Source: Methanothrix thermoacetophila PT
GTDB taxonomy: Archaea; Halobacteriota; Methanosarcinia; Methanotrichales; Methanotrichaceae
Assembly (NCBI RefSeq): GCF_000014945.1
Contig: NC_008553.1
Span: 248,001 to 312,000, forward strand
DNA: 64,000 bases
Direction: 5' to 3'
In this document: piece after piece, positions 1 through 45,568 of the stretch
Position numbering within the stretch: the first letter of the stretch is position 1
Layout of the letters: each line of letters opens with the position of its first letter
Made by a program: the position numbers and the translations under genes
Notes under the pieces: generated by a model
Told to the model about the DNA's origin: nothing
The model's database searches: none
The model's input: the letters and a program-made list of their open reading frames with translations, nothing else

Positions 1-245
1 GAGCATCCATTTGATGTCCCTGCATTGGGGCAGTAGCCACATTGATGATAGCACTCGTTGGTGAAGAGAGTCTTGAAGAGGCGCACATGGCAGCCATTGC
101 GTCCTGAGGCACTGTAGATCAGCGAGTCATCATTCCGTCTGTGGCAGCACCTGTCGTATCTGGTGCTTCTGCTGAGCGCCTGAACCTTAATATCAACGTC
201 CTCGAGATCGAAGCTCGCACCACGTGCCAGGATCGACCGTTCCAT
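1..245 (-). CDS. radical SAM protein, N-terminal part (runs off the left edge)
   Basis: This reading frame starts at ATG 245 and is still open at base 1, so only about 81 residues are visible. Near residues 64-71 it has the C-x3-C-x2-C cluster motif (ECYHQCGYCPN), which binds the 4Fe-4S centre of radical SAM enzymes. Before it come an ALSRSTRYDRC segment and GRNGCHVRLFKTLFTN. This arrangement resembles the DNA modification/repair radical SAM family linked to uracil-DNA glycosylase (TIGR03916-like), from memory. The frame is intact through the motif. It overlaps a small upstream ORF by 53 bases. The family assignment needs the missing part; the radical SAM call is firmer. Confidence 0.7.
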   Translation of the reverse strand, partial: MERSILARGASFDLEDVDIKVQALSRSTRYDRCCHRRNDDSLIYSASGRNGCHVRLFKTLFTNECYHQCGYCPNAGTSNGC

Positions 246-393
246 CGTGCCGTTCTTCTACCCTCACAGTAAATACCATCTGCCCATGCGGGGCGAAAGT
301 GATCTCGGGTGTATCCGAGTTTACCATAAAAGCACGACACTCAGCGTCAACCCCCTTGATCCATTTTGGAGAGAGCATCTCGAACGCTTTCAT
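193..393 (-). CDS. small hypothetical protein upstream of the radical SAM gene
   Basis: A 66-residue ORF lies between mch and the radical SAM gene on the same strand. Its sequence looks protein-like, with alternating hydrophobics such as QMVFTVRVEE, but I do not recognise it. A start at ATG 378 (MLSPKW) is also possible. Its 3' end overlaps the radical SAM start by 53 bases in another frame. A TATA-like CTTTTATGG on the minus strand falls inside it, so the stretch may instead be leader DNA of the downstream gene. Confidence 0.35.
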   Translation of the reverse strand: MKAFEMLSPKWIKGVDAECRAFMVNSDTPEITFAPHGQMVFTVRVEERHDGTVDPGTWCELRSRGR

Positions 394-473
394 CTTTTGG
401 CACGCCTTTTTATTGCATATGGAGTTTCTGTGCAGATTTGCAGCGCACTGACAGGGCCCAATAATTGGTGGGA

Positions 474-1433
474 TCAGAGTACCTGGATCCCGAATGATTC
501 CATCAGGACATCATGGTTCAGCCTTCCGCTCACGATAGTTGTCCTAGATATCAGCTCGTTCATCACGACCCTCGCTGGAGCGAAGATATTGTGGTCGACC
601 TTGAAGAAGTCGAAGCCTGCTGCTTTGAATGCACTGTAAAACGGCACGCCATAGTCCCTGGAAGCAGATGATGGCATCTTTCTCACATAATCTTTGAGCT
701 CCTCTAGGTTCTCATACTCAATTGTGTAATACGTATCGCCGCCGTAGATTATGGCATCGTTGGACGCGCCCATGCACATCGTGGCGTCGCCGGCCACCGG
801 CGCGATCGGAGCCACGCCCCAGCCGCTTTTTATCTTTGTTATATCGAAACCCATGGTGAAGAGCTTGTGCATACCTGTCTCGACAATCCTGGCAGATACC
901 TGGACCATGCCCGCCACAGAGTCGGTCGGAGCCACAGCGATTCTCAGGTCAGATGGCTCTATTCCGCACATCTCAGCTATTCGAGCAGCCACAGCCGCAT
1001 CTGGAATCCTGCTCGCCTCCAGAACAATTGCCCCGACATCCGAGTATTCATCAAACCCGATCCTCTCGTAAAGATCCTTCGTCTTCCGGGCAAGAGCCCT
1101 CGCAGGTCCGCTGCCCATCGCGAAGTACTTGTCGACCTTGATCTGCCACATCGCGCACTGCGACCCCATGCAAGATATCGCGGGATGGTCTGTGGTGACC
1201 TGTATTCCCGGGACTGATATGCCTTTGAGACCGTACGGCACGATCTGGATGTCGGCCAGGTCTGCCATGCATATCCTGCTGATGAATATGCCTGCCCAGA
1301 GGCCGCCGGGCGCCTTAACGCCAGCATCTATAACAACCGCGCCGTTCTCCAGCTCTATCACATCGACTCTGAGATCATCGGCCAGATCGAGCATCTCCTC
1401 GAAGACCTCAAAGCCCATCTCGTTTATGCTCAT
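474..1433 (-). CDS. mch: methenyltetrahydromethanopterin cyclohydrolase
   Basis: The enzyme interconverts 5,10-methenyl- and 5-formyl-tetrahydromethanopterin (or the sarcinapterin form), a cytoplasmic C1 step of methanogenesis. The protein is 319 residues, the normal family length. It opens with SINEMGFEVFEEMLD and keeps conserved segments such as TTDHPAISCMGSQ and APIAPVAGDATMCMGASND. I chose ATG 1433 because GGTGATC sits eight bases upstream; a TTG codon just before it gives one extra residue. In an acetate-splitting methanogen this gene serves C1 oxidation and biosynthesis more than the main energy route. Confidence 0.95.
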   Translation of the reverse strand: MSINEMGFEVFEEMLDLADDLRVDVIELENGAVVIDAGVKAPGGLWAGIFISRICMADLADIQIVPYGLKGISVPGIQVTTDHPAISCMGSQCAMWQIKVDKYFAMGSGPARALARKTKDLYERIGFDEYSDVGAIVLEASRIPDAAVAARIAEMCGIEPSDLRIAVAPTDSVAGMVQVSARIVETGMHKLFTMGFDITKIKSGWGVAPIAPVAGDATMCMGASNDAIIYGGDTYYTIEYENLEELKDYVRKMPSSASRDYGVPFYSAFKAAGFDFFKVDHNIFAPARVVMNELISRTTIVSGRLNHDVLMESFGIQVL

Positions 1434-1566
1434 CAAACATGATCACCTTTCCCGAGCGAGGAGTGCGAGATTGGATATAAACAAATCGTCCAGATCTGCA
1501 TGGGAGGACCACGAAGATTCCCCGTCTTCAGGCCTGCGACGAGTCGTGCTTCTCATTTCCATGAAT

Positions 1567-2268
1567 TCATTCTGTGTTATTTGAGCTGACCACTCTCCCC
1601 TGGAGGATTCGATCCGCGAGCCTGGAGAGCGGAAGGCTCTGCAGGTAAACCCTCCCAGGCCCTTTGAGCCTCGCCAGGAAAATTCCCTCACCGCCGAAGA
1701 GCGCGTTTCTTATTCCGCCTACAAAACGTATATCGTAATCCACGTCTCTCGAGAAGGCGACGAGGCATCCTGTATCAACATTTATCACCTCTTCCTCCTG
1801 GAGATCTCTAGTGATCAGAGCACCTCCGGCATGGATGAACACCATACCCCTGCCCCTCAGTCTTTGAAGGACAAAACCCTCGCCACCGAAGAAGCCCGCA
1901 CCAAGACGCTTTGTGAATGCCAACTCAATCTCCACACCGCTCTCCCCGCAGAGGAAGGCTCCCCTCTGGCATAGAAGCTGTCCTCCAAACTCATCAAGAT
2001 TGAGTGGCAGTATCTTTCCCGGAAAGGGCGCGGAGAACGCCATCCTTTTCATATCATCAGATCGGTTGGTAAAGCTCGTTATGAACAAACCCTCCCCTGC
2101 CACTGCTCTCTTCAACCCCTTTATGATGCCTCCTGTGGACGCGCTCATATCTATCTCATCATCCATGAAGAGCATCGCGCCCGCCTCTGATCTTATGCTC
2201 TCACCCGGAGCCATCTGGACCTCCAGGACCTGGAGATCATCTCCAAGAATGGTGTATCTAAGACTCAT
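1567..2268 (-). CDS. AIM24 / TIGR00266 family protein
   Basis: The protein has 233 residues. Its Gly-rich beta pattern (AGFFGGEGFVLQRLRGRG, FGGEGIFLARLKGPG) is typical of the AIM24-like family, whose biochemical role is not defined in prokaryotes. There is no signal peptide or membrane segment. ATG 2268 is preceded by GGGG and a short T stretch. It lies between mch and the glycogen debranching gene on the same strand, with about 130 and 110 bases to its neighbours, so it is probably its own unit. Confidence 0.85.
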   Translation of the reverse strand: MSLRYTILGDDLQVLEVQMAPGESIRSEAGAMLFMDDEIDMSASTGGIIKGLKRAVAGEGLFITSFTNRSDDMKRMAFSAPFPGKILPLNLDEFGGQLLCQRGAFLCGESGVEIELAFTKRLGAGFFGGEGFVLQRLRGRGMVFIHAGGALITRDLQEEEVINVDTGCLVAFSRDVDYDIRFVGGIRNALFGGEGIFLARLKGPGRVYLQSLPLSRLADRILQGRVVSSNNTE

Positions 2269-37125: not shown

Positions 37126-38538
37126 TCACTTCGGCGGCCAGTAGCTCTTCATCCACTCGACTATGCGCCCAGAATCCTCTGGTCCCACCAGGATCTTCAC
37201 CTTTCCGCCAAAGAGGTCCTCGAGCTCGCCGCTGAACTTCGCTGCCATCCCTGGCAGGACGATCGACGGATACTTCATCTTCGTGAAATCGAAGTCCGCC
37301 TCCTTGAACGCCTCGACGATCTTCTGTGGGTTCAGCTGTCCGCCTGCGACCGATGCCTGCACACCAATACCATCTGTGTTGATGGACATTATGTAGGCAT
37401 CAATGTTGTTCGAGGCGACATCCGACTCCACAGTGTAGTAAGTGAGGGCGAAGTTCGTCGTGACGAAGACAGGCGATTCCTCTGTCGGATTGCCGACCTT
37501 GTAGATGCCGGGCTTGACCTGGACAGGTCTCCTCGGGTCTGTGTAGATGTTGTACCTGAGGTGCATGTCAGGCATCACGCAGTGCGGCTCGATGCAGTGC
37601 TTGATCATTATCGAGGCGCCGCGTATGACGAACGTCGCTGTAAGGACAGACTCCCAGTAGGCGGCCCTCACCGGATCCTTGGTGGTGAACCATGCGTTGA
37701 TCGGCAGGGCGATCGTCGGGTAGGCGATGTCCTTCTGGCCCTCCTCGAGCGCCGCCCTTCTGAGCTTGAGAAGGTTGTGCAGCGACTCCTGGAGCTTCTT
37801 GCCGTTGGGCGCTGTTCCGAAGTCGAGAATCAGATCATGGATACCCATCTGCTCGAACGTAAGCGCCATCGACTTGAGTCCATCGAGATCGAATGGCACG
37901 CTGAGAACGACCGGCACGTTGAACTCGTGGACGAGCTTCGCGACCTCCTGCCAGTTGTCCTTGTTTGCTGCGTACACCAGTGGTCTGGTCTTGGCTGCGA
38001 CCTCAAGACCAGCGCGGAGAACCTTTGGATCGAAGGAGCAGAGTATCATCGGGTAATCTGTGGTCTCCATGACCTTCTTCACGCACGCGGCGAACTTTGC
38101 GGGATCGCCTGAGGTTGACCTGACAGCGATCATCTCCACGCGCTCCCACTTGCCTATGTAGAACTTCTTCCACGTGCTGATCTTCTTCACACGCTCGACG
38201 AGCGCTGCCTCCTCCATCGTGTCTGTGACGTCGTAGGCAAATGGCGGCTTGTTGAAGAACGTCATCTGGTGGCGGTACATGACATCCTCGCCGCCGACCT
38301 TCTGCTCCTTCTCGCCTGTTCCGACGTAGACAAGCCTGATCTCAGGAGCAACTATCGCCTTGAGGGTCTCGTACTTCTTCGCGTACTTCTTCTCCTCGGC
38401 CAGCGGTGTGCACTCCTCGACGCGCTTGGACCTGTCGATCAGAGCAGCTGCAAATGCCATGCAGGTCTGGAATCCACATTTGCCACAGTTGGTCTGAGGC
38501 AGATGCTTGTAAAGGTTTAGGGGGCTCTTTTCCTTCAT
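37126..38538 (-). CDS. cdhE: CODH/ACS complex subunit gamma (corrinoid Fe-S protein large subunit)
   Basis: The 470-residue protein carries the N-terminal 4Fe-4S motif TNCGKCGFQTCMAFAAAL and a C-terminal corrinoid-binding domain; the TIM-barrel middle binds methyl-H4SPT. With CdhD it takes the methyl group released from acetyl-CoA and passes it to tetrahydrosarcinapterin. It is the last gene of the cdh operon, five bases after cdhD. Confidence 0.96.
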   Translation of the reverse strand: MKEKSPLNLYKHLPQTNCGKCGFQTCMAFAAALIDRSKRVEECTPLAEEKKYAKKYETLKAIVAPEIRLVYVGTGEKEQKVGGEDVMYRHQMTFFNKPPFAYDVTDTMEEAALVERVKKISTWKKFYIGKWERVEMIAVRSTSGDPAKFAACVKKVMETTDYPMILCSFDPKVLRAGLEVAAKTRPLVYAANKDNWQEVAKLVHEFNVPVVLSVPFDLDGLKSMALTFEQMGIHDLILDFGTAPNGKKLQESLHNLLKLRRAALEEGQKDIAYPTIALPINAWFTTKDPVRAAYWESVLTATFVIRGASIMIKHCIEPHCVMPDMHLRYNIYTDPRRPVQVKPGIYKVGNPTEESPVFVTTNFALTYYTVESDVASNNIDAYIMSINTDGIGVQASVAGGQLNPQKIVEAFKEADFDFTKMKYPSIVLPGMAAKFSGELEDLFGGKVKILVGPEDSGRIVEWMKSYWPPK

Positions 38539-38543
38539 CGCTA

Positions 38544-39902
38544 TCAGACCTCCATCTTGACCCAGTTGGTTATATCAGGAGTCTCCGCATCTATCAGTCC
38601 CATGAGAGTCTGTGTGATCTCCTGGAGGTAGGCGACCGCAAGAGGATGCATCATCATGAATATATCCACGCCCGCCATCGCAAGCGAGAATCCGGTGATG
38701 ATCTCCCAGATCGGGCCTCTGAGCATCCTGTCGCCCCAGTCGGAGTCCTCCTTGTTGGGCGAGCGGACCATCCAGGCCTCCCTGACGCCCCATGCGTTTG
38801 TCGTGCCTGAGGACATCGGGAATGTAAGCTCCTCGTCTCCCTTAAGCGCTCCAAGCCTTATGCGCTCCATGTTGGTGTACGCGAAGTCGAGACCATAGGC
38901 GAGAGCAGCCGTTGTTGGATCCATCACTATGGACTCCCTCGGCACGCCTGCGACCTTCATGAGCTTCCTGTTGAGCTCCTTCTGGGAGTTGATCTCGAGC
39001 TGCGTCCATGCCAGGCAGACATGACCGTTGTCCACGCATGCCCTCCCTATCTTCTCCCAGTCCATGTTCAGGTTGGCGCTTGCGATCAGCGCGCGTTCGC
39101 CCTGTGCGACTTCTGCAGCAGCTTTGAGAACCTCAGGATCCTTGTCCGGATTGCCGGAGCCACCGATGCATATCGGGACATCCACAGCCTGGAGAACCTC
39201 CTCCACAGTCTTCGCTGCCTCTCTGGGAGGAGTATCCTTCAGGAGGGGATCTGTGCTTATGAGGTGTATCGTGACGAGATCGGCACCGAACTTTGTGACT
39301 GCCTTCTTCGCCCACTCGCCGGGATCGTTGATGACATCCTCGTAGTGCATCTTCACAGCCTTTGCCATGCCGATGGGCATATCGAAGACGTCCATTGTGA
39401 CCACGGGCCTGTGCGGCATTGGCGCATCATAGAAGAACGGCAGCGCCTTCTCCCCTCCTATCTTGATCGTGTGGCCTCTGCTTCCGCCATCTGCCTTAGT
39501 GGCCCCAAGCGTCACCTCCTGGATTGGATACTTCCACGTCTCATCGATTCCAACCTGGAACTTCGCCTGGACCAGGCTGGTGGCGACCTTCCACTCTGGG
39601 ACCTTGGCCGCCGCCTCAACAACCTCAGCAGGGGCTGGAGATATAGCATGCGCAACTGCAGCAGGCTGGAGCAGAGCATCTACCGGATACCCCATGCTCC
39701 TGGCGAACTTGACGAGCTGCACCGCGATCTGGGCAACCTCCTGGCCGAAGTAGTAGGCGAAGAGCGGCCCTATGCCGGCAGCCCCGGTATCTATCTCGAT
39801 CTCTATATCGCCCTCGATGGATACACCCTCAAGGGCCTCCACGCCGTATTGCGCCAAAGTCTTGTTCAGATCTGATAACTTGATCTTCTTCTCCTCTGCC
39901 AT
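38544..39902 (-). CDS. cdhD: CODH/ACS complex subunit delta (corrinoid Fe-S protein small subunit)
   Basis: The 452-residue TIM-barrel protein pairs with CdhE in methyl transfer. It begins [20 protein letters not shown] and has the family segments [27 protein letters not shown] and [17 protein letters not shown] 39902 is the family start; a GTG three codons upstream is ignored. It lies 12 bases after cooC and five before cdhE, tightly in the operon. Confidence 0.96.
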
Positions 39903-39914
39903 ATAAATCACCCT

Positions 39915-40676
39915 TCAAATACCCAGAGCCTTGACGACATGCTCCTCGATCTCCTTCACAGAAGGCGCATCGTCAGGCAGGTTTATCAATGGGTCTCCCA
40001 CTAGATCGAAGTTGGCTAACCTCTCATCGTAGGGGATTGTTCCGATAACATTGAGGCTGACGGACCTGGCGTTCTCGATGATCTTCTCTTTATTGTTTTC
40101 AGTCACTTTGTTGGCGATGACGTAGAGGTTGTTGTACTTCAGGCCGAGCTCCGAGGCCAGCTCCCTTATCCTCTCTCCCGTGGTAAGACCACGCCTGGAG
40201 GAGTCTGTGACCACGATCAACGAGTCCAGGTCAGGGATAACCTTTCTGCTGAAGTGCTCCAGACCCGCAGCGGTATCTATGATTGTGATGTCATACTGAT
40301 CTATCAGCCTGTCCATTATGCCCCTGAGAAGATTGTTGACAAAACAGTAACATCCTGATCCCTCGGGTTTGCCCATGACCAGAAGATCGTAGCCGTTCTC
40401 CTCCACGAGTATCTCGAAGATCTTCGCCTCGAAGAGCCTCTCTTTGTCAGTCTCCGGCGGTGTGGTGTATCTGGCCTCCTGCATGAACTCCCGCATATCG
40501 CCAACGGTCTTTGTCACCTCCACGCCAAGAGCATCGGCGAGGTTTGAATCCGGATCGGCATCGATCACCAGAACGCGGTATTTCCTGCCGCTCTTGATCA
40601 GATATCTGACGAGAAGAGCGGCGACTGCAGTCTTGCCAGTGCCACCCTTTCCTGTTATCGCTATTACTCTCCCCAA
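39915..40676 (-). CDS. cooC: CooC-type nickel-insertion ATPase for CODH/ACS
   Basis: The 253-residue MinD/ParA-like ATPase has the deviant P-loop ITGKGGTGKTAVAALL, the DADPDSNLADALGV segment and DTAAGLEHFSRKV. Methanogen cdh operons usually carry such a gene between cdhC and cdhD; it is thought to load nickel into the C- or A-cluster using ATP. A Cys pair for metal binding is visible as GSGCYCFV. It follows the second small Ala/Pro protein by 13 bases. Confidence 0.93.
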   Translation of the reverse strand: MGRVIAITGKGGTGKTAVAALLVRYLIKSGRKYRVLVIDADPDSNLADALGVEVTKTVGDMREFMQEARYTTPPETDKERLFEAKIFEILVEENGYDLLVMGKPEGSGCYCFVNNLLRGIMDRLIDQYDITIIDTAAGLEHFSRKVIPDLDSLIVVTDSSRRGLTTGERIRELASELGLKYNNLYVIANKVTENNKEKIIENARSVSLNVIGTIPYDERLANFDLVGDPLINLPDDAPSVKEIEEHVVKALGI

Positions 40677-40689
40677 GATCTAGCCTTCC

Positions 40690-40878
40690 TTACTTCTTCT
40701 GCTTGATGACTACTTCCTGAATGTGTACAGTCGCACCTCTGAGCTCCAGGACGATTCCCTGAGAACCAGCAGCGGGCGCAAACATCGGTGCAGCAGGTGC
40801 CGCCGCAGATGCGGGAGCAGCAGCGGGCGCAGCCGCAGGTGCAGCAGCTTCCTTCTTCTTGAGCACTAACTTGGCCAT
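40690..40878 (-). CDS. small Ala/Pro-hinge protein in the cdh operon (paralogue 2)
   Basis: The 62-residue protein begins MAKLVLKKK, continues with an Ala/Pro-rich flexible stretch of about 25 residues and Met/Gly, and ends with two beta-strand-like runs (GIVLELRGATVHIQEVVIK). GGGAGG lies nine bases before ATG 40878. It shares its start and layout with the gene at 40935. The end resembles, from memory, the tail of CdhC in other methanogens. It is co-transcribed with cdhC and cooC and probably binds the complex. Confidence 0.75.
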   Translation of the reverse strand: MAKLVLKKKEAAAPAAAPAAAPASAAAPAAPMFAPAAGSQGIVLELRGATVHIQEVVIKQKK

Positions 40879-40934
40879 ATACCAAAACCTCCCTCTCAAT
40901 CTCCCTCAGCAAAAATATAGAGGAGACAGGTGTT

Positions 40935-41120
40935 CTACTTCGCCAGAACCACCTTGTCTATGGTTATCTTCGCGTCCTTCAGCACCAGCTTTATGCCAGC
41001 ACCGCCGGCCGCGGGCATGGCGAATGCCGGAGCTCCAGCAGGTGCGGCAGCCGCGGGGGCTGCAGCAGGAGCGGCCGCTGGTGCAGCCGCCGCCTTCTTC
41101 TTCAATACCAGCTTGGCCAT
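40935..41120 (-). CDS. small Ala/Pro-hinge protein in the cdh operon (paralogue 1)
   Basis: The 61-residue protein shares MAKLVLKKK with its neighbour, then an Ala/Pro hinge of about 30 residues, then GIKLVLKDAKITIDKVVLAK. GGAGG eight bases before ATG 41120 marks a true start 16 bases after the cdhC stop. The N-terminal strand and C-terminal strand pair (KLVLKxA) look like one repeated beta unit joined by a swinging linker, as in proteins that carry or dock mobile domains. The role is unknown. Confidence 0.78.
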   Translation of the reverse strand: MAKLVLKKKAAAAPAAAPAAAPAAAAPAGAPAFAMPAAGGAGIKLVLKDAKITIDKVVLAK

Positions 41121-41136
41121 TTCAAAACCCTCCAAT

Positions 41137-42546
41137 TCACTCTAGCACGCCATCGGCCTGGAGTGCCTCGACAACCTGCATGAACTGCCCCTCACTCATG
41201 AGAAGCTCGTTCTTCACGTTGTCTGTATCGATCTCTCCTTCATACTTCTCGATGAAGGCGATGACCTGCTCCTTGAGCTCGTCTGTGATCTCCTCGAACT
41301 TCCATCCCTCGGTTATCTTCTTGTTGTCAACAGGCCTCACAACACCTGTGACGACAGGATGATCGACCTTGAGCAGGAACCTCTTCAGGGACTCGAGATC
41401 TGTGGCATCGTCCTCTGTGGCGATCTTGTCGTACATCTCCGCGGGTATTCCTTCCTTCACCCTCTCCTTGAGCCTCTTGGACATCCAGACGATCCTGCGC
41501 CAGCCGCCGTCTGCCTGGAGGAACTTCGGGGAGAAGTAATACAGCACACCCATTCCGAGGAAGCCAACGACCTGCTTGCCACCGCCTGTCTGTCCGGCCA
41601 TGGTCGAGAACGGCAGGCCGTTCGGAGCATTGCCCTTGTATTCGCGATCACAGATCCCTATTCCGTCGACCTCAGGCATGTAGAAACCGATCGTCTCGAA
41701 GCAGCCGCAGGATGTGTGTGGCGCATCGAAGAAGGTGTACAGCTTCATCACCGTGTACTCGCCGCCGGATCTCTTCGCAGCCATCTGGTTGATGCTCTCG
41801 TACTCGCCAGTGATCGGATCCTTCAGTCCCTCCTTCGGTATCGGGAACTGCGGGCCCTCCGGGTCGACCTTAGCCGCAGCACGGCCATCGAACCATGTGA
41901 TAGCGCCGCAGAGCGAAGGCCTGTCGGGCGTCACGACGCATGCGCTTGTGGGGGCGAACGCCTGGCAGAGTGTGCATCCGTAGAAGACATCCACATCCTC
42001 GTCATGCAGACCCTTCGCCCTCTCGTCTCTCGCCCTGTAGACCTGCATCGCCTTCTCCAGCTCTTCCTTGACCTTCGCCGGATCCGTGACGATTGTAACC
42101 TCCATCTTCTCGATGAAGGGCATCTCGGCCTTGTAGAGGTTGATGACAGGCTTGAATATCTGCTCCCAGGATGTAACGCCCTTCTTCTGCAGGCTCTTGC
42201 CTAGCCTCATCCAGATATCATACCTCTGGTTAAGGTGCATGAGGCCGCTGATGTAGGAGAGCAGAGCATGGTTGCGCCTCTCTATGATCGACTCCAGGTC
42301 CTTCTCGATCTTCTCGCCTGCGACCTTGAAGATCATGCCGAAGGGGATTGTTGAGCCCTCCTTGACATCCTTCAGGTCAGGCCCGATGATCGTGACCTTC
42401 CCGTCCTCTACCTCGTCCATTGAGGCGGCCAGTGTCAGCTCGAATCCGTCTGCCTTCGGTCCACCCATCTCTACCCACAGGTCGTCCTTCCTTATGCGCT
42501 CCCCTTCGTACATCGGGGATATGTCCAGTTGGATCTCTTCAGCCAT
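41137..42546 (-). CDS. cdhC: CODH/ACS complex subunit beta (acetyl-CoA synthase)
   Basis: The 469-residue subunit holds the Ni-Ni-4Fe4S A-cluster that splits and makes the C-C and C-S bonds of acetyl-CoA. A-cluster Cys are in FYGCTLCQAFAPTSACVV and HTSCGCFETI. The C-terminus is helical (SEGQFMQVVEALQADGVLE). AGGAGAGGTG precedes ATG 42546. Two small Ala/Pro-hinge genes follow at once. Confidence 0.97.
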   Translation of the reverse strand: MAEEIQLDISPMYEGERIRKDDLWVEMGGPKADGFELTLAASMDEVEDGKVTIIGPDLKDVKEGSTIPFGMIFKVAGEKIEKDLESIIERRNHALLSYISGLMHLNQRYDIWMRLGKSLQKKGVTSWEQIFKPVINLYKAEMPFIEKMEVTIVTDPAKVKEELEKAMQVYRARDERAKGLHDEDVDVFYGCTLCQAFAPTSACVVTPDRPSLCGAITWFDGRAAAKVDPEGPQFPIPKEGLKDPITGEYESINQMAAKRSGGEYTVMKLYTFFDAPHTSCGCFETIGFYMPEVDGIGICDREYKGNAPNGLPFSTMAGQTGGGKQVVGFLGMGVLYYFSPKFLQADGGWRRIVWMSKRLKERVKEGIPAEMYDKIATEDDATDLESLKRFLLKVDHPVVTGVVRPVDNKKITEGWKFEEITDELKEQVIAFIEKYEGEIDTDNVKNELLMSEGQFMQVVEALQADGVLE

Positions 42547-42596: not shown

Positions 42597-43145
42597 TCAC
42601 TTCTTCAGTATTGCAATCAGCTCATCGATCGCCTCGTGGTATCCTGCAGAGTCGAACGCCAGGTTCCCGAATGTCATATCAGCGTTGACATGGTAGTACC
42701 TGTCGATGGAGACGCGCTTGATATCCCTGTTGAAGTGCTTCAGCGCAGAGAACATGGCGTTTGCGAACTTGTAGAAGATACCCATGAAGATGACCACATC
42801 GTAGTGGCCCTGCCCATCCAGACCCTTCCAGTCCTTGAATCGCAGGTAGTTGGTCAGCGGATGCAGCCCGATCTGATAGACGTTCGTCGTGTACCCTCTC
42901 TCGATGAAGCCCTTGATCGTGTGAGCTGTCGCAGCGATCGTCATGTTCTTAGCCTTGGCGATCTCTATCGCCTTATCGAACATGACCGGGTCGTCGAAGA
43001 GCTCTGCTCCCACGACCAGCAGCGGCCTCTTTGCCTTCTTTATGATGGCGCCTATGACCTTCACAGGATAGGCCTTTGCCATCTCAGGCCCGGGGATCTG
43101 GGCCATCTCAAAAGGTATGGGGTTTTTGGTTGTGTCGACTGCCAT
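42597..43145 (-). CDS. cdhB: CODH/ACS complex subunit epsilon
   Basis: The 182-residue Rossmann-like protein binds CdhA in the alpha2-epsilon2 CODH core and may bind FAD. It has KRPLLVVGAELFDDPVMFDKAI and VVIFMGIFYKFANAMFSALKHF. ATG 43145 has GTGAGG upstream; a longer frame from 43154 overlaps cdhA. It is five bases after cdhA. Confidence 0.95.
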   Translation of the reverse strand: MAVDTTKNPIPFEMAQIPGPEMAKAYPVKVIGAIIKKAKRPLLVVGAELFDDPVMFDKAIEIAKAKNMTIAATAHTIKGFIERGYTTNVYQIGLHPLTNYLRFKDWKGLDGQGHYDVVIFMGIFYKFANAMFSALKHFNRDIKRVSIDRYYHVNADMTFGNLAFDSAGYHEAIDELIAILKK

Positions 43146-43150
43146 TTCCC

Positions 43151-45568
43151 TCACTTCCTGACCCTGATCTTCCTCTCGATGTTGGTCGGATCGAAGCTCA
43201 CATCTGCCGGCCTGATCGGACCCTCGACGATCTTCTTCGCCTTCCAGTCGATCTTCCAGCCGTACTTCTCCTCGAGCTCCTTCATCATCTGGTCCTTCCA
43301 GGCGAGCGGAAGCTCAGATGCATGCCTCACATAGACAGGCCAGTCATCCGGCAGCTTGCCGAAGTACTTCATGGATATATCGCAGTAGTGGGTCAGCTTG
43401 ATCATACGGCCAATCGAGTTATCACTGGGTCTGAAGCATAGCTTGGCCATCATCAGCATGGCCTCCTCCTTTGTTTCCGCAACGTACAGCATGTGCTCAG
43501 GAGCAGGCTCGATCCTCACCTTGGAGCCATCTCTTGCATCTATAACCATCCAGTCCTCTGGCAGATCGGCCCTTCCCAGGAACGCCCTGCGGTATATCAC
43601 AGAATGTGGCTGCACCACAACAGGTACACCAATCCTGTTAACACCAGTCGCAATTGAGGCTGCCTTCTGCGAGTATGCGCCCCAGGCTATGCCGCACGCT
43701 CCGACCTTGGAGAGTATGTAATCTGCAATATCATCGTAGTTTGCACGATGGTTCCTGTGAGCGAATATCGTGGCGACCTTTATCGCAGCTCCATGTATGT
43801 GGGCATTTGCAACACATGATCCGACGTTACATATATTTCTGCCATCGAATGCACCTGGATACTGCTCCCAGATCGTCTTGCCCTCTGCATCAGTGTAGAG
43901 GGACATATCCATCGCCATGCAGCCCGTTGTGACAACAATATACCCTCTATCGACGAACTCCTTGGCGATGTCATAGCACTCCTTGGTGCCGTTTGGATAG
44001 TTGCTGCATCCGACAAGCGCTATCACGCCGGGGATTGTGCCGAGAACTATGGGCGCGCCGACCGCCCTGATCTCTGTATCCCTGATCGGCCCTCTGCCAG
44101 CCCTCATCTTGAACTTCTGGTTCCTGATGTACTCCCTGTTGGCATACTCATACATCTTAAGTATCGGGATGTTCTGCCTGCAGACCTGCTCGCATCTGCC
44201 ACATCCAACGCAAACCTCATATGTCGAGGAGAACGGCTCCAGGTTGCCCTTCGCGGCTTCTTCCATGAGATTGCTTATCCTGATGTGCGGCGGGCAGACG
44301 AATGCGCACTCATTGCACTTGGTACAGCTCGAGACCAGCTTCTTGAACTCATCCTCTGTGAGGACGATCCTGTTCCTGATATCTGCGCGCTTCGGCTTTA
44401 CTGCAATGGCGGTCTTGACGCCCACCTCTCCAGCCTTCACCGGATCCAGTATGACAACACCTGGCACCCGGAAGTTAACCAGATCATCCACAATCTCATC
44501 GACCGGGTCATTTGTCCTATCCTTGAGACCATATAAGATTTTGTCATTGGTGGCGATCAGTGGTATCTTGCGCTCCTCGCAGTCCTTCAGGGCATCGCAC
44601 CATACGCACTGCTCATCAACCATCACTGTGTCCATGATCCCTGCCCTGACCATCTTCCTCCACCAGCCGACTGCGCCTGCGACCTTCGCCTTGGTTCCGA
44701 TCATGTCAGGAACCTTCTTCTCACCCATGCCCTCGCCGATCCTGGTGAGATCGATGGCCGTGCAGCATACGCCACCTATATCGACTTTGTCCCAAAGGTT
44801 GTTCGTCTCAGTGTAGAACATAGCCTCGGCGCCGGCTGCGAGGTTGTGGCCATATGCGATAAGAACGGCCTTGTTCTGGTCCAGCGTACCCATGCCGATC
44901 TCGACTAGCGGAGCGTTCGGATCGCCGCGTGGCATGTTGTAGGCCACGATCTGCAGCATATCGCAGATCTCCTTGCCGAGCGAATCTATCATGCCCGCAT
45001 GAAGGGCCTTGGACTCGAAATCGACATAGCTGCCCTCCTGACCTGTATGCGTTGCCGCCAGAAGCTGCGTGATCTGCTCCTCGCAGTACTCAAGAGCCTT
45101 GCCGAAGTCCTTCAGCGATTTCGGCCTGATGCCGATTATGGTCTCAGTCAGGGGTGCTGTCACAAGTATATCTGTGCCCATATCGAACTTCATATCTCCG
45201 AACTTGTCGAGAGTCCAGTGGTACAGATGACGCCCATGGGCTGTGTGAGCGCATGTGCCCATCAGGCATGCGACAAGAACGATCTTTCCGCACGTCCCTG
45301 CCATATCTATGCCGCATGCTCCGCGCTTGTTGCCGGTGAGATCACATGGACCAAATGTACAGAGTGTACAGGTATCGTCTGCAGGCGCGTAGAATATTCT
45401 GTAACGATTCAAAATCTTGAAGTCCCAGTCGCGCAGGGTTGCGATCTGCGGCTTCGGGAACGGACCCATCGGCTGGTCCCATTCCTCCTCCTCCTTAACG
45501 ACAGCCCCTATGTTGATCTGGACATTCTTCATGTCCTCAACTGTAAAGCTGCCCTCGAGCTTTGCCAT
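43151..45568 (-). CDS. cdhA: CODH/ACS complex subunit alpha (carbon monoxide dehydrogenase)
   Basis: The 805-residue catalytic subunit oxidises CO to CO2 at the Ni-Fe-S C-cluster and passes electrons to ferredoxin. N-terminal cluster Cys are in DDTCTLCTFGPCDLTGNKRGAC; a two-cluster ferredoxin insert has CTKCNECAFVCPP and CVGCGRCEQVC. Later Cys/His include GCSNYPNGTKECYD and NVGSCVANAHIHG. It is the first gene of the operon. AAGGAGG is 11 bases before ATG 45568. Confidence 0.97.
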   Translation of the reverse strand: MAKLEGSFTVEDMKNVQINIGAVVKEEEEWDQPMGPFPKPQIATLRDWDFKILNRYRIFYAPADDTCTLCTFGPCDLTGNKRGACGIDMAGTCGKIVLVACLMGTCAHTAHGRHLYHWTLDKFGDMKFDMGTDILVTAPLTETIIGIRPKSLKDFGKALEYCEEQITQLLAATHTGQEGSYVDFESKALHAGMIDSLGKEICDMLQIVAYNMPRGDPNAPLVEIGMGTLDQNKAVLIAYGHNLAAGAEAMFYTETNNLWDKVDIGGVCCTAIDLTRIGEGMGEKKVPDMIGTKAKVAGAVGWWRKMVRAGIMDTVMVDEQCVWCDALKDCEERKIPLIATNDKILYGLKDRTNDPVDEIVDDLVNFRVPGVVILDPVKAGEVGVKTAIAVKPKRADIRNRIVLTEDEFKKLVSSCTKCNECAFVCPPHIRISNLMEEAAKGNLEPFSSTYEVCVGCGRCEQVCRQNIPILKMYEYANREYIRNQKFKMRAGRGPIRDTEIRAVGAPIVLGTIPGVIALVGCSNYPNGTKECYDIAKEFVDRGYIVVTTGCMAMDMSLYTDAEGKTIWEQYPGAFDGRNICNVGSCVANAHIHGAAIKVATIFAHRNHRANYDDIADYILSKVGACGIAWGAYSQKAASIATGVNRIGVPVVVQPHSVIYRRAFLGRADLPEDWMVIDARDGSKVRIEPAPEHMLYVAETKEEAMLMMAKLCFRPSDNSIGRMIKLTHYCDISMKYFGKLPDDWPVYVRHASELPLAWKDQMMKELEEKYGWKIDWKAKKIVEGPIRPADVSFDPTNIERKIRVRK

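Follow-up and report, generated by a model that had tools for sequence, protein, structure and literature searches.

The C-terminal tail of the ACS subunit CdhC, which splits acetyl-CoA, is encoded apart from the enzyme in Methanothrix thermoacetophila, a member of the acetate-consuming methanogen family Methanotrichaceae. Two small genes directly downstream of cdhC, here called miniA and miniB, are under purifying selection, and sequence comparison indicates that the end of the miniA protein is homologous to the CdhC tail of other archaea. CdhC itself ends in a winged-helix-like domain that replaced the lost tail, and the same swap is found in other lineages; both points had been missed in a preliminary description of this DNA. 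We consider it fairly probable that the two small proteins are adaptor tethers, exchangeable and non-covalent, that replace the covalent CdhC tail.

Two small genes between cdhC and cooC

The window, a stretch of 64,000 nt from the M. thermoacetophila genome (G000, one contig of 1,879,471 bp), carries an ACDS operon on the minus strand in the order cdhA-cdhB-cdhC-miniA-miniB-cooC-cdhD-cdhE; coordinates below are positions of the window, and all of these genes are on its minus strand. The genes cdhA (alpha subunit, 43151..45568), cdhB (42597..43154) and cdhC (ACS/beta subunit, 469 aa, 41137..42546) are followed by miniA (61 aa, P0002, 40935..41120) and miniB (62 aa, P0001, 40690..40878), then by a gene for a cooC-like nickel-insertion ATPase with a TTG start (39915..40676), cdhD (delta subunit, 38544..39911) and cdhE (37126..38538). 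The gaps are 16 nt from the cdhC stop to the miniA ATG, 56 nt from miniA to miniB and 13 nt from miniB to cooC. Both reading frames given in the preliminary description are present, and the ribosome sites that it mentioned can be read from the DNA as GGAGGG for miniA (41128..41133) and GGGAGG for miniB (40888..40893), 7-9 nt upstream of each ATG. Its statement that methanosarcinal operons have nothing at this place agrees with loci L022 and L024, where the cdhC stop and the cooC frame are adjacent.

The two proteins share one layout. Each translation starts with the strand MAKLVLKKK, as had been reported (40852..40878 in miniB; 41094..41120 in miniA, where it is a putative docking strand), continues with a linker of about 32 residues rich in Ala, Pro and Met (AAAAPAAAPAAAPAAAAPAGAPAFAMPAAGGA, 40998..41093, in miniA; EAAAPAAAPAAAPASAAAPAAPMFAPAAGSQ in miniB) and ends in a two-strand element, or hairpin (GIKLVLKDAKITIDKVVLAK, 40938..40997, in miniA; GIVLELRGATVHIQEVVIKQKK, 40693..40758, in miniB). 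The miniA linker is predicted to be flexible, with pLDDT below 50 in a model of the orthologue from L030. The end of miniB is clearly more diverged from the KLVLKDAKI type, attributed earlier to both proteins, than that wording suggests.

A protein match at E<=1e-10 was obtained in 23 of the 25 Methanotrichaceae genomes, the window genome counted; the remaining two are G010, which has no cdhC and is 85% complete, and G022, with an accessory cdhC copy only. The cdhC-miniA-miniB order is retained in nearly all main operons sampled from the family, so the earlier proposal holds up when other Methanothrix operons are compared. In G008 (L010, L038) miniB was not found and miniA stands alone. Across the family (24 A and 23 B distinct hairpin sequences), the hairpin codons gave pN/pS values of 0.15 for A and 0.28 for B. 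These low values, together with the matches in the family genomes, identify miniA and miniB as real genes. Neither these small genes nor their peptides were found in the literature that could be searched. With the microproteins of about 30 residues in Archaeoglobales described below, they point to small genes that have gone unrecognised in operons at the heart of methane formation.

Tail homology and the swap at the end of CdhC

With phmmer, miniA aligned to residues 417-466 of Methanosarcina thermophila CdhC (9c0s chain E; E=5.9e-6), and it matched positions 433-460 of the 460 in TIGR00316, the last 28 positions of that profile (E=3.6e-4). Profile comparison against the fused tails gave E=1e-14 for A-type hairpins and E=2e-7 for B-type hairpins. 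When Methanosarcinaceae were searched with the small proteins, the matches fell in frames of 466-492 aa, i.e. within cdhC. The matches of a hairpin HMM were confined to the ends of CdhC and to small free ORFs adjoining it (other proteins, E>10), and no hairpin was detected in other ACDS subunits. miniA conforms to the terminal hairpin profile G-x-K-[IL]-x-L-K-[ND]-A-K-[IV]-x-I-[DE]-K-[VI], with a weaker match for miniB, and both proteins have the flexible Pro/Ala/Met-rich linker ahead of the hairpin. The likeness to CdhC tails that had been suggested in the preliminary description is therefore supported by alignment and profiles alike. The feature of the tail that is absent is the covalent connection: the hairpins are encoded by separate genes, and a different domain forms the end of CdhC. 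Pyruvate dehydrogenase, DUF3597 and methylmalonyl-CoA decarboxylase gave weak Ala/Pro matches that were rejected as low-complexity linker matches, and weak matches in Methanotrichaceae frames of about 500 aa (E>0.03) were also taken as linker matches.

CdhC ends were read in Methanosarcinaceae, ANME-2 and other Methanosarcinales contigs, Archaeoglobales, other Halobacteriota families and 29 Thermoproteota loci. Linker and hairpin end every full CdhC read in these groups outside the tail-less class, except for two aberrant sequences, the first ORF of L160 and L076. At 2-1930 (plus strand) of L160, from G294, lies a second, divergent ACS-like ORF without the C-terminal tail, upstream of a Thermoproteota ACDS operon.

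For the CdhC of Methanothrix, the NF003379 match stops at position 416 of 464, near the start of the linker, and a different domain follows (about residues 415-469; 41140..41304). This domain of about 55 residues is predicted by AlphaFold, for the L030 orthologue, to fold into three helices with a short strand, at pLDDT 84-92. The corresponding domain of relatives passes the Pfam cut-offs of HTH_24 (L110) and MarR_2 (L108); that of the window is below every Pfam cut-off, its best match being DUF7343 (E=0.015).

Tail loss and domain gain go together. The 139 distinct CdhC sequences divide into 97 with the fused hairpin but without the extra domain, 35 with the extra C-terminal domain in which the fused hairpin is missing, one (L108) with both and six with neither, four of these six being cut by contig ends. 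Of the 58 winged-helix CdhC loci with enough downstream DNA, 56 are followed by one free hairpin ORF or by two, each bearing the N-strand, and an N-strand hairpin ORF was found at none of the 110 fused-tail loci; both totals count loci rather than independent genomes, with near-identical loci from the same genomes among them. The two exceptions (L181 and L062) are accessory cdhC copies adjoining hdr-like genes. The view that the tail has become free-standing thus agrees with the state of CdhC itself, which lacks the tail wherever the small proteins exist. The CdhC of L108 (4038-5696, plus strand), with its winged-helix-like domain and fused linker and hairpin, is a possible intermediate.

The free form extends beyond Methanotrichaceae to L109, L110, L174, L113 and L115. 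The winged-helix/free-hairpin architecture occupies four places of the CdhC tree, where well-supported branches force at least three changes, and the tree therefore indicates that the swap occurred in at least three lineages. Winged-helix domains are common, so separate acquisition by different lineages is possible.

Hairpin types, accessory loci and candidate partners

The hairpins fall into two types. A-type hairpins are CdhC-tail-like, and B-type hairpins are marked by [KR]GA and by E in the second strand. The B type provides the only free protein of L113 and L115. In many Archaeoglobales it also forms a lone microprotein (about 22-36 residues) immediately downstream of a fused-tail cdhC, whose stop the microprotein start overlaps in several loci. 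The Methanotrichaceae miniB profile matches these microproteins with E=4e-9, versus the 2e-7 to fused tails noted above. Since miniB is slightly closer to the microproteins, or about equally close, the duplication of the tail proposed in the preliminary description is not established, and miniB may, judging from these profiles, be older than a simple duplication. In the Archaeoglobales-like family f7 (L078-L107), the lone-hairpin microprotein (e.g., MEEESKKVKLILKGAQIHIPELIIEEEE) lies between cdhC and cooC, with a start that overlaps or abuts the cdhC stop; it was located at about 1388-1474 (minus strand) in L078 and after the cdhC stop at 2991 in L098.

The two ends of the small proteins have evolved differently. 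Over the first 13 residues, the identity of A and B is 84% when both come from one genome, a value as high as which was reached in none of 5000 permutations, and 66% when they come from different genomes. Their hairpins are 36% alike whatever the genome, and orthologous hairpins are 88% (A-A) and 73% (B-B) alike. Concerted N-strands with distinct hairpins would fit one docking site for the N-strand and two sites for the hairpins. Alternatively, the concerted N-strands could have arisen by gene conversion between neighbouring repetitive genes rather than from a shared binding site. In L006 (G002), the N-terminal and linker sequences of miniA and miniB are nearly identical, which suggests recent gene conversion in that genome.

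Accessory CODH loci were also compared. A second cdhAB-cdhC cluster in G018 has miniA only. The second clusters of G013 and G024 have lost cdhC, and their miniA is shortened (L039) or frameshifted (L040). That miniA decays in loci lacking cdhC supports a functional link between the two. G022 and L062 retain cdhC without the small genes. The accessory clusters read through (G018, G024, G022 and L062) adjoin hdrE-like genes. Loci L033, L039, L040, L181 and L062 are accessory CODH loci of Methanothrix harundinacea/Methanocrinis-like genomes, with hdrE-like neighbours and at different stages of the loss of cdhB, cdhC or miniA.

Structure models gave no confident docking. In AlphaFold read-through chains of CdhC-miniA-miniB (L030) and of CdhC tail-CdhD-CdhE (L168), pLDDT did not exceed about 60 for the hairpins and N-strands, and for this reason no docking is claimed. 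In the L168 model, the CdhC tail and the CdhD N-terminus each form one 18-residue strand, which is taken as a lead only; the acidic strand module at the N-terminus of CdhD is a low-confidence candidate receptor. A hub motif common to CdhD was considered and dropped: the best CdhD match of the hairpin profile is N-terminal, but 13 of 100 column shuffles equalled it. The best CdhA match of the same profile lies in the N-terminal 30 residues and is weak (2 of 700 column shuffles were as good). Here, the CdhA motif KNVQInIG (loci L021-L119; MKNVQINIGAVV in the window) resembles the KNAKItID of the tail, a likeness that is suggestive without establishing homology. These 30 residues are conserved in archaea but missing from the model of the Ca. 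E. thermophilum structure, and a role in stabilising other subunits of ACDS has been proposed for them (PMC11493965). In the second-type ACDS of L115 (3807-5468, minus strand) and L113 (4145-5864, minus strand), CdhD starts with the KVKLKKKE strand of the small protein and has an extra CxxC-rich C-terminal region.

Proposed adaptor tethers and their alternatives

Residues 398-472 of the M. thermophila ACS were not resolved by Biester et al. (PMC11474084); the C-terminal extension of the methanogen enzyme (about 75 residues) is of unknown function and has been proposed to act when ACS swings between CODH and CFeSP (PMC11474084). In most archaea, CdhC carries at its end a long, flexible linker followed by a basic hairpin of two conserved strands, and this fused hairpin probably anchors the mobile ACS to the complex as the enzyme moves between CODH and the corrinoid protein CdhDE. 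We infer that this tail is a flexible anchor that was made into a plug-in adaptor in Methanotrichaceae. Each small protein joins an old hairpin (the CdhC-tail type in A, the second type in B) to the flexible linker and has a short new strand at its N-terminus, and CdhC has gained its winged-helix-like domain at the former exit of the tail. The tight coupling of tail loss, domain gain and N-strand gain predicts binding partners: the N-strands would bind one common site, most likely the winged-helix-like domain of CdhC, and the A and B hairpins would each dock at a site of their own in the complex, with the hairpin on the old receptor of the tail. Such docking may affect the movement of the A-cluster, as the preliminary description had proposed. 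Methanosaeta CODH was purified as two subunits, and the Methanosarcina complex has five (PMC4500148); a two-subunit enzyme is as expected if the link to ACS is not covalent.

Other roles can be imagined. The small proteins could be assembly or maturation factors that act with CooC, for example by holding apo-CdhC for nickel insertion, instead of permanent tethers. They directly precede cooC, and the lone hairpin microprotein of Archaeoglobales is also found between cdhC and cooC. However, the hairpin belongs to CdhC itself in most archaea, and so is a structural element there; the free hairpin gene of L113 and L115 lies between cdhC and cdhD with no cooC in the 12 kb covered, and Thermoproteota keep the fused hairpin without cooC between cdhC and cdhD. 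We regard a CooC-linked role as improbable. Pairing of the hairpins (A with B, or as homo-oligomers) into an oligomerisation hub of ACDS, with the N-strand as a part of the hub rather than a means of docking to CdhC, is in our judgement just as unlikely. The joint occurrence of A and B in most main Methanotrichaceae operons, the combination of a fused A with a separate B in Archaeoglobales, and the N-strand at the start of CdhD in L113 and L115 are in its favour; many lineages, including all Methanosarcinaceae and Thermoproteota sampled, have only A, which cannot then require B in general, and the CdhC-miniA-miniB model contains no confident A-B pairing.

That the two proteins are functionless relics of the lost tail hardly merits belief, short and of low complexity as they are: the selection test on the hairpin codons disfavours it, and the start, Shine-Dalgarno site and gene order are conserved and the arrangement recurs in other lineages. 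A generalisation of the adaptor reading is more speculative than that reading itself, and we put it forward tentatively, as somewhat doubtful. Archaeal ACDS might be held together by a recurring basic/acidic beta motif on flexible arms (the CdhC tail, the CdhA N-terminus and possibly the CdhD N-terminus), the CdhC arm having been turned independently, in several lineages, into plug-in adaptors. A winged-helix socket and free strand-linker-hairpin peptides would then fit socket and hub, with different partners for A and B. In Methanotrichaceae and two or more further lineages, the natural split of this tail offers free peptides that are open to removal, mutation or labelling with the enzyme left intact.

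Among the closest known counterparts of the proposed adaptor tethers, the archaeal CdhC C-terminal extension (TIGR00316/NF003379; M. thermophila ACS 398-472, PDB 9c0s and 9c0t) has the same hairpin sequence and flexible Pro/Ala/Met linker; unlike this extension, the small proteins are separate from CdhC, exist in two versions and have an additional N-terminal strand. The motif at the N-terminus of the CODH alpha subunit CdhA is like that of the CdhC tail, with weak profile similarity. The C-terminal domain of CdhC, with its predicted three helices and short strand, is a possible counterpart of winged-helix domains (HTH_24, MarR_2), from which it differs by its attachment to a metabolic enzyme. 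Finally, the small proteins would work like the swinging arms of 2-oxoacid dehydrogenase E2 chains, in which a flexible Ala/Pro linker joins a mobile catalytic part to a large complex. The match to 7b9k is confined to that linker, and the small proteins, which have no lipoyl or peripheral-subunit-binding domain and no homology beyond the linker, are not members of this family.
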